From assembly GCF_900116425.1 (NCBI RefSeq), contig NZ_FPAS01000003.1, positions 248,001 to 312,000 on the forward strand: DNA of 64,000 nt, written 5' to 3'. Made by a program: the position numbers and the translations under genes. The notes under the pieces are model-generated. The model was not told the DNA's origin and searched no databases. It saw only the letters and a list, made by a program, of their open reading frames with translations. Shown here one piece after another: positions 22,708 to 23,588 of the stretch (its first letter is position 1; every line of letters starts with the position of its first letter). The DNA is from Lishizhenia tianjinensis (lineage in GTDB: Bacteria > Bacteroidota > Bacteroidia > Flavobacteriales_D > Crocinitomicaceae).

Positions 22708-22782
22708 GGGCGATTAGCTCAGTTGGTTCAGAGCACCTGCCTTACAAGCAGGGGGTCACTGGTTCGAATCCAGTATCGCCCA
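22708..22782 (+). tRNA. tRNA-Val (TAC), copy 2
   Basis: Identical in all 75 nt to copy 1, 27 bp downstream of it and almost certainly on the same transcript. Its last 8 nt begin the 53-bp sequence that recurs at 23536. It is followed by a strong terminator. Confidence 0.97.
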
Positions 22783-22827
22783 CCGAACAAAAGGTCAAGT
22801 TTATTTTAAGCTTGACCTTTTTTTATG
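22775..22827 (+). repeat. 53-bp direct repeat, left copy (tRNA-Val 3' end plus terminator)
   Basis: From ATCGCCCACCGAAC to the end of the terminator T run and the following ATG triplet, this stretch is identical to 23536-23588. The two copies bracket about 700 bp that contain decayed tRNA copies and the GIY-YIG gene. Confidence 0.9.
22789..22824 (+). terminator. Terminator of the tRNA-Val transcript
   Basis: Stem AAAAGGTCAAG (22789-22799) with CTTGACCTTTT (22811-22821), 11-nt loop, T run. Confidence 0.88.
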
Positions 22828-22850
22828 TCCATACATTTTCATTTTAGTTC

Positions 22851-22912
22851 TGATTTGCTCAGTTGGTTCAGAGCGTCCCGATGCAATCGGGAGGGACACT
22901 ACTTCGAATCCA
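22851..22912 (+). pseudogene. Decayed tRNA-Val copy 3
   Basis: Keeps the D arm GCTCAGTTGGTTCAGAGC (22857-22874) and the T-loop TTCGAATCC (22903-22911) of the tRNA-Val genes, but both acceptor halves are gone and the anticodon region is replaced by the palindrome TCCCGATGCAATCGGGA. It cannot fold into a functional tRNA. Confidence 0.75.
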
Positions 22913-22954
22913 AAAGATAGACACCGTTTCTTTACCAAAATCATCTCCAACCAT

Positions 22955-23060
22955 AGTTCAAACTTATTTAAAGCTTAACCTTTTTTATGTCCATACATTT
23001 TTCCTATCAATTTTGATTTGCTCAGTTGGTTCAGAGCATCCCGATGCAATCGGGAGGGGA
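22955..23060 (+). pseudogene. Decayed terminator and tRNA-Val copy 4
   Basis: A worn copy of the terminator (TTCAAACTTATTTAAAGCTTAACC-like, 22957-22984) is followed by ATGTCCATACATTTTT, then TTTGATTTGCTCAGTTGGTT...CAGAGC and the same CCCGATGCAATCGGGAGGG palindrome. It repeats the layout of 22811-22900 with a period of about 160 bp. The T arm is lost. Confidence 0.65.
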
Positions 23061-23186
23061 ACCCAACGTTTCTGGACTAGATTTAAGACTAACCCAAGGT
23101 TGAACATCATACTTTTCTAAAAACAACCTTTTTGAGATCCTTAAAAATGTTGTAACTTGAGTACTATTCAACCTAATACTCCAAAC

Positions 23187-23441
23187 ATGTATAAAGTCTA
23201 TATTTTATATTCTAACACCCTTAACAAATTCTATATTGGCTACACTGGTGATAACATTCAAACACGTTTGAAAAAACACAATTCCAATCATAAAGGTTTC
23301 ACCGGAAAAGTAAATGACTGGTTCGTTAAATACACAGAGGATTACAAGACAAAAGAGGAAGCCTTAGCCAGAGAAAAACAAATCAAAAGCTGGAAATCTA
23401 GAAAAATGATATTACAACTAATTGAGAAGGTTAACACTTAA
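23187..23441 (+). CDS. GIY-YIG endonuclease domain protein
   Basis: An 84-residue stand-alone GIY-YIG nuclease domain of the small YhbQ/UPF0213 kind. The motif appears as [19 protein letters not shown] (the GIY and YIG strands), then an Arg (TRLKKHN) and the helix with a conserved Glu ([17 protein letters not shown]), ending in the usual basic tail. The ATG at 23187 starts right at the conserved MYKVYI. It lies inside an array of decayed tRNA-Val copies between 53-bp direct repeats. Such genes are common beside tRNA genes in Bacteroidota, as I recall. All catalytic motifs appear intact; the target is unknown. Confidence 0.88.
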
Positions 23442-23445
23442 TTTA

Positions 23446-23545
23446 TATGATTCTCCCAACTGGTTAAGAGCATTCCAATACAATCGGGACAGGATCTGGT
23501 TCGAATCCATGTGTTTACTTCCGAGACTTTCGGAAATCGCCCACC
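23446..23545 (+). pseudogene. Decayed tRNA-like copy 5 ending in tRNA-Val 3' end
   Basis: Right after the GIY-YIG stop codon: CTCCCAACTGGTTAAGAGC resembles a D arm, CCAATACAATCGGGAC a worn palindrome, ATCTGGTTCGAATCCAT a good T arm, then a TTCCGA-GAC-TTTCGGAA hairpin and ATCGCCCACC, the 3' end of tRNA-Val. Not functional as a tRNA. Confidence 0.65.
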
Positions 23546-23588
23546 GAACAAAAGGTCAAGTTTATTTTAAGCTTGACCTTTTTTTATG
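23536..23588 (+). repeat. 53-bp direct repeat, right copy
   Basis: Identical to 22775-22827: last bases of tRNA-Val, spacer, terminator hairpin (stem arms 23550-23560 and 23572-23582) and T run. Probably still a working terminator for the GIY-YIG gene. Confidence 0.9.

Follow-up and report, generated by a model that had tools for sequence, protein, structure and literature searches.

Analysis of the window, a stretch of 64,000 nucleotides from the genome of Lishizhenia tianjinensis, and of related loci in other genomes revealed a short GIY-YIG nuclease gene that stands behind a tRNA gene and is followed by decayed tRNA sequence, an arrangement that recurs phylum-wide. The locus anatomy and the insertion into tRNA genes are near certain, and sequence comparison shows insertion into a tRNA gene, regeneration of the tRNA, a tRNA-dependent palindrome swap, and presence or absence at orthologous sites. 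A selfish unit, homing-like and parasitic on tRNA genes, is probably responsible; it would regenerate its own tRNA target. The feature is real and widespread and, as far as the open-licence literature shows, undescribed: in the available portions of that literature no description was found of GIY-YIG genes inserted at tRNA genes of bacterial chromosomes and accompanied by palindrome-tagged copies of the tRNA, and the available part of a survey of the GIY-YIG superfamily (PMC1564403) mentions neither Bacteroid- or Flavobacteri- names nor tRNA genes.

All features of the window locus lie on the forward strand. Two intact tRNA-Val(TAC) genes were identified by ARAGORN, copy 1 at 22606..22681 and copy 2 at 22708..22784, the latter also recovered by repeat analysis (family D3) and identical to copy 1 over 76 nt. 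The sequence-only reading had reported a perfect 53-bp direct repeat, which was confirmed as the tRNA-Val 3' end plus terminator (family D1), with its left copy at 22775..22827 and its right copy at 23536..23588; it forms part of a 66-nt repeat pair at 94% identity and is no chance event. A third, degenerate copy of the same family (61%) lies at 22938..23003. The decayed tRNA-Val copies and the intact nuclease gene reported between the repeats were likewise verified, by alignment and Pfam match. In front of the gene stand pseudo-tRNA-Val 1 (tRNA nt 5-65; 22852..22912), whose anticodon arm is replaced by a palindrome, and pseudo-tRNA-Val 2 (tRNA nt 5-47; 23015..23059). Both carry the same palindrome, TCCCGATGCAATCGGGA, at the anticodon-arm position (22876..22892 and 23039..23055); these are the only two exact sites that palindrome and whole-genome pattern searches recovered in the 3.56-Mb genome, while the loose pattern TCCCGATN1-8ATCGGGA occurs at nine. 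The nuclease gene itself (84 codons plus stop; 23187..23441) was taken from the ORF list. The further tRNA fossil proposed behind it proved by alignment to be pseudo-tRNA-Val 3 (tRNA nt 5-65; 23449..23509), whose anticodon-arm place resembles a decayed palindrome by eye; in this rear fossil, up to 75 nt from the nuclease domain, no palindrome with at least six matching bases was detected. A second palindrome, TTCCGAGACTTTCGGAA (23519..23535), found by palindrome search and in the sequence itself, separates pseudo-tRNA 3 from the right repeat. Apart from the nuclease gene, the ORFs between the 53-bp repeats are short mechanical ones (85 and 62 aa) over the fossils, and the ORF list contains no gene of integrase length there.

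The deduced protein matches a single Pfam family, GIY-YIG (PF01541, E 1.8e-15), and the residues Y5, Y16, R27 and E63, presumably the catalytic positions, are invariant across 14 diverse rows of the alignment. Among phage profiles it weakly matched phrog_314, annotated 'homing endonuclease' (E 5e-4). The nearest solved sequences in the PDB are 1zg2 and 1ywl (UPF0213) and 7cq2 (SLX1). There are also differences: SLX1 is a structure-specific nuclease that works in repair with its partner SLX4, according to the accessible part of PMC8287910, and the one non-Bacteroidota relative examined, from Neisseria, has no tRNA within 2.5 kb. The dN/dS ratio is below 1 for every pair of nuclease genes, with a median of 0.21 over all 27 pairs, of which 25 count and two compare copies of one record (L052/L253); the gene is under purifying selection. 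In several loci (e.g. L030, L032, L034, L037 and L044) the nuclease frame continues, by eye, into the pseudo-tRNA and palindrome. A reading of the gene as an intron ORF or part of another RNA was dropped, as Rfam at the gathering threshold found only tRNAs, and no group I or II intron around the ORF, in 39 loci outside the window that were chosen mainly for a missing upstream tRNA.

The L. tianjinensis genome contains five PF01541 matches, of which the window gene and L002 are the small ones. L002 is located ~560 nt behind two same-strand tRNA-Asp(GTC) genes and is flanked on both sides by decayed tRNA-Asp copies with another palindrome (TCCCCAAG...CTTGGGGA). The remaining three matches have no tRNA within 1.5 kb.

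Within the same family (Crocinitomicaceae) 74 of 120 genomes contain relatives, and so do 112 of 198 genomes and 67 of 103 genera sampled from the phylum. We infer this phylum to be Bacteroidota because 78 of 80 named loci have record titles that point to Bacteroidota, and because two of the named records, L221 and L253, share their nuclease DNA with the family loci L023 and L052. The other two named loci, L211 and L247, come from MAGs titled Limnohabitans and Paraglaciecola, whose short contigs may be mis-binned Bacteroidota. Altogether 275 distinct loci were examined (108 family, 78 named and 89 phylum), with three viral-contig loci left out. The family set consists of L021-L131 (31 loci and 80 regions, the 13 weakest matches being left out) minus L025 and L046, which are also contained in L052 and L053, and L108, whose nuclease DNA is identical to that of L107. 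The named set comprises the best 80 of 458 relatives obtained with a Val-clade query, minus L221 and L253, identical in nuclease DNA to L023 and L052. The phylum set joins 29 given loci to 60 chosen down a list of at least 89 matches and is thus not a random draw.

An intact same-strand tRNA gene was found less than 900 nt upstream of the nuclease gene in 202 of the 275 loci, with a median gap of 55 nt (30-120 nt in 162 of the 202) and 23 kinds of anticodon. Another 19 loci have a tRNA solely downstream, within less than 200 nt, in one the sole upstream call is an odd tRNA-like one, 25 reach a contig edge, and 28 lack any such tRNA. At these distances no locus of the 275 has a tRNA on the opposite strand; L283, a viral contig outside this set, does have one. 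By our estimate from 39 tRNA matches in the 3.56-Mb L. tianjinensis genome, chance would place a tRNA in such a neighbourhood for about 0.5% of genes. The sequence-only reading had stated that it would fail if the nuclease family sat mostly away from tRNA genes, and the survey found the reverse. In the 25 contig-edge loci no tRNA was called and the sequence upstream is shorter than 400 nt; contigs of draft assemblies frequently end at nuclease loci (e.g. L026, L034, L039 and L040), perhaps because of the repeats.

Among the 28 loci lacking a tRNA, nine contain tRNA sequence or fossils detectable by BLAST and three more contain fossils recognised by eye; in the other 16 neither approach found any nearby. 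L085, L105 and L107 form one clade among these 16, and in all three the nuclease gene is enclosed by inverted repeats (CCCCGTTAGAAAT...ATTTCTAACGGGG, or in variant form). The nuclease of this clade (2372-2749 in L107; L108 has the same gene) lies antisense between two ORFs, of 161 and 220 aa in L107, which resemble the halves of a split IS91-like transposase. L098, L115, L120 and L129 form a separate clade without a nearby tRNA, and L098, L120 and L129 seem, by eye, to stand amid other intergenic repeats. In L216, L255, L233, L379 and L333 only a tRNA 3' half (from ~nt 31) is found just upstream of the nuclease gene; by inference these lone halves are the far ends of unrelated islands that seem to have integrated in the anticodon region of the tRNA.

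The constant orientation at the tested distances and the median gap of 55 nt make read-through expression from the tRNA promoter conceivable and, together with the purifying selection on the nuclease, are what would be expected of a gene that serves its host, i.e. a nuclease that the host has recruited to process tRNA or to control its dosage, and that selection for co-transcription keeps beside the tRNA. Such a role is nevertheless improbable, given the patchy distribution within the family (74 of 120 genomes), the existence of nuclease-free orthologous sites within genera and of fossil and truncated copies, and the different-looking nucleases, by eye, at the same locus in one genus.

The usual order of elements is intact tRNA, terminator, GIY-YIG gene, pseudo-tRNA, tRNA 3' end, terminator; the reverse order (pseudo-tRNA, gene, intact tRNA) was also found, in L076 and L355. 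Of 196 testable loci, 178 (60/68, 61/62 and 57/66) show part of the tRNA and/or its terminator again behind the gene, where a match had to score above all 100 shuffles and could involve any part of the tRNA or the following 40 nt; a few matches are confined to the terminator or to the 5' part, and in principle a neighbouring tRNA could be the target. A palindrome within 75 nt of the end of the nuclease domain was detected in 96 of 129 loci, compared with 6 of 129 shuffled segments. In 65 of these loci, compared with none of the shuffled segments, the palindrome has TCC...GGA ends; this survey covered the family and named sets only. The 33 loci without a palindrome at the tested place include that of the window.

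The position of the palindrome within the pseudo-tRNA depends on the tRNA. In 35 of 50 palindrome-bearing tRNA-Val loci it replaces exactly nt 29-45 (borders 28/46), which in our numbering is the anticodon stem-loop; the other 15 rows lack these exact borders, three of them sharing the same centre. The anticodon stem-loop (nt 28-44) is also replaced in seven of nine tRNA-Arg(TCT) loci and in one tRNA-Leu locus. The palindrome takes the place of nt 38-47 in 12 of 15 Met loci, of nt 39-50 in three of five Asp loci, of part of the T-loop in Phe loci and of part of the D-loop in Ala loci. Predicted RNA folds of five pseudo-tRNAs gave z values of -1.1, -1.6, -2.5, -2.8 and -2.3; for the pseudo-tRNA of L250 the predicted fold comprises the D stem, a new hairpin and the T stem, and the other examples follow this in part.

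These palindromes also raise the possibility of palindrome-guided transposition, in which a hairpin-recognising nuclease would move a unit of terminator, gene and hairpin into tRNA genes because these, when single-stranded, form hairpins, in the manner of RAYT/REP systems but with a different enzyme. The frequent TCC...GGA palindromes, often an exact swap for the anticodon stem-loop, the kinship to UPF0213 and SLX1 in the PDB, the hairpin predicted in L250 and in part elsewhere, and the nuclease-free, hairpin-tagged tandem units of L028 all speak for it. We regard it as unlikely all the same: the palindrome is not dispersed, its exact form being confined to the window locus and even its loose form to nine sites in its own genome, where a genome-wide search found no dispersal, and the nuclease clades are largely tied to one tRNA identity. 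The RAYT enzyme is a Y1 (HUH) transposase. As far as the accessible literature goes, REP/RAYT pairs resemble the present unit in tying short palindromes to one nuclease-type gene; they differ in that the enzyme here is a GIY-YIG protein and in the lack of dispersal. A RAYT/REP pair in the strict sense was rejected, since the window protein has no Y1 domain and its palindrome is not dispersed in its own genome.

Occupied and nuclease-free sites were compared at tRNA-Val, whose conserved upstream neighbour in 11 Val loci is a gene that we take to be folC. A search anchored on this gene returned 49 tRNA-Val loci that lack a nuclease match and 19 rows that have such a match; three of these 19 are loci fetched twice. 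Empty sites in sister strains had been proposed as a check, and nuclease-free orthologous sites indeed occur in sister species, occupied and nuclease-free sites coexisting within genera g10 and g17; the occupants in g10 resemble, by eye, different nuclease subfamilies. In the clean same-genus pair, occupied L029 and empty L166 share an identical tRNA. L029 has an insert of 553 bp with a repeat of 17 bp of tRNA 3' end, after which the L166 terminator and flank resume at 92% identity over 144 nt. Two further pairs are weaker. Between L028 and L160 homology resumes from nt 20 of the L160 tRNA and extends over 1.2 kb at 87%; L160 has no nuclease gene, yet tRNA fossils stand in front. Between L032 and L162 it resumes from nt 11, over 247 nt at 73%, and this pair is the weaker because part of the flank occurs a second time in L162. 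In L032 the terminators before and behind the gene are unlike each other, and L029 shows three different terminators in succession. Taken with the pair comparisons, these terminators indicate insertion within the tRNA gene, the front terminator being borne by the unit and the native ones pushed back; by implication, the 3' half of the front tRNA came with the unit.

In the folC-anchored loci, a tRNA or terminator repeat was detected, with a stricter margin, in 6 of 47 nuclease-free loci and in 10 of 14 distinct occupied ones (13 of 17 rows). Repeats without linkage to the nuclease, named beforehand as a refuting result, do therefore occur in a minority of nuclease-free loci, but most occupied loci have them. 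The six nuclease-free cases, and the existence of tandem intact tRNA copies and of nuclease-free arrays, would suit passive hitchhiking, i.e. tandem duplication of tRNA genes by ordinary recombination with the nuclease as a trapped bystander. This is very unlikely, as repeats are far commoner where the gene is present, the association is phylum-wide and the nuclease clades follow the tRNA. The proposal of the sequence-only reading that a small nuclease-bearing unit targets or duplicates tRNA 3' ends is, by contrast, strongly supported by the neighbouring tRNA genes, the repeats behind the nuclease gene and the nuclease-free orthologous sites.

Integrative elements that target tRNA genes likewise insert into the gene and repeat its 3' end, by which the tRNA is regenerated, and the present unit shares these traits with them. 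It differs in being a single short gene, without a gene of integrase length, and in its rear copy, which is rebuilt with a palindrome. That the locus is the remnant of an ordinary tyrosine-recombinase island with the tRNA 3' end as attachment site, of which 3'-end repetition is the hallmark, appears most improbable: an apparent integrase gene does follow tRNA-Val in L166 and L146 (by eye), but the units read contain no gene of integrase length, and both the palindrome swap and the tRNA-following clades are foreign to that mechanism. An integrase island was rejected for the window, where no gene of integrase length lies between the repeats, and, by eye, for the further loci read.

Two or more nuclease-domain matches, fragments counted, are present in 72 of the 275 loci, with a maximum of eight. 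The earlier idea of an array-expanding unit holds to the extent that tandem arrays exist; the sister comparisons go beyond expansion, to insertion into a tRNA gene with regeneration of its 3' end. L333 (G174:C34) contains the array of eight matches, accompanied by tRNA-Met fossils, and L352 (G291:C1) one of five behind an intact tRNA-Met. In L028, tandem nuclease-free units, each a palindrome-tagged pseudo-tRNA with terminator, lie between tRNA-Val and the nuclease gene.

On a tree of 110 family proteins, built by a quick method from few columns and with many forks open, anticodon identity (15 states, 81 labelled rows) required 20 changes, compared with 49-60 in 300 shuffles; the nuclease clades largely follow one tRNA identity across genera. 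Seven tRNA-Val sequences, including that of the window, are identical between occupied and empty loci. For these seven, a protected tRNA allele in occupied loci is ruled out; protection therefore does not lie inside the tRNA, and the front tRNA should stay cuttable. Protection may reside in the terminator or flank, may arise because a hairpin or replication structure is required, or may be lacking, with arrays as the result.

In a selfish, homing-like unit of the kind favoured here, the nuclease would cut the cognate tRNA gene, and repair of the break would copy the unit; the two tRNA copies, which are conserved even from one species to another, would supply the homology arms. The tRNA would be regenerated through this repair and the host thereby spared; the palindrome would mark the joint and leave the rear copy unfit to be a target or to act as a tRNA. 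Classical homing destroys its own target. The present unit shares with free-standing homing endonucleases a GIY-YIG domain with conserved positions and the coexistence of occupied and empty orthologous alleles, but it is not classed with them here, because their insert destroys or alters the recognition site and no such destruction is seen inside the tRNA for the seven shared tRNA-Val sequences; a site outside the tRNA body is possible.

The closest likeness among free-standing GIY-YIG homing endonucleases adjoining tRNA genes is SegB of T-even phages, which in T6 causes a tRNA-Tyr segment to be amplified through recombination, according to the available part of PMC13096335. Repeated cutting or slippage might produce the tandem arrays of the present loci in a similar way (PMC13096335). 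SegB is phage-borne and reportedly has no preference for a tRNA isotype, whereas the clades described here keep largely to one tRNA, and the available part of the same paper mentions neither palindrome-tagged pseudo-tRNAs nor regeneration of the tRNA. Phage or plasmid carriage of the present unit was considered and dropped, as searches for relatives of the window protein returned no phage records, no plasmid records save two Neisseria entries of chromosome size, and viral contigs in one search only, where there were three.

More tentatively, and with some doubt, the loci could represent an undescribed class of mobile element, a minimal unit consisting of an ~84-codon nuclease gene, a terminator and a palindrome, which inserts into a tRNA gene and rebuilds an intact tRNA in front of itself, stamps the displaced copy with a hairpin where its anticodon arm had been, and keeps to one tRNA per lineage, with a nuclease that reads the hairpin structure of the tRNA gene instead of, or in addition to, the sequence. 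Recognition of hairpin structure would explain why the tRNA of the carrier itself is spared. Large integrative elements classically dock at tRNA genes, while the unit described here apparently consists of one gene and is found phylum-wide. If the reading holds, it would be a chromosomal homing-like system with built-in repair of its target and with lineages that follow the tRNA, a possible source of nucleases specific for tRNA genes and a candidate cause of changes in tRNA copy number.

Finally, two minor observations concern the sequence directly behind tRNA-Val. In L166 and L146 there is, by eye, the start of an integrase-like gene, presumably a tyrosine integrase. In L029, L165, L167, L175 and L155, which span several genera, a terminator beginning TCTGATAAAAGC recurs. 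The TCTGATAAAAGC terminator of L165, L167 and L175 was considered as the native state and dropped, because the outermost copy in L029 matches L166 better, a sign that the TCTGATAAAAGC terminator is part of an additional insertion without a nuclease. Its copies have similar flanks in several loci and no nuclease gene of their own, and may represent a non-autonomous insertion.
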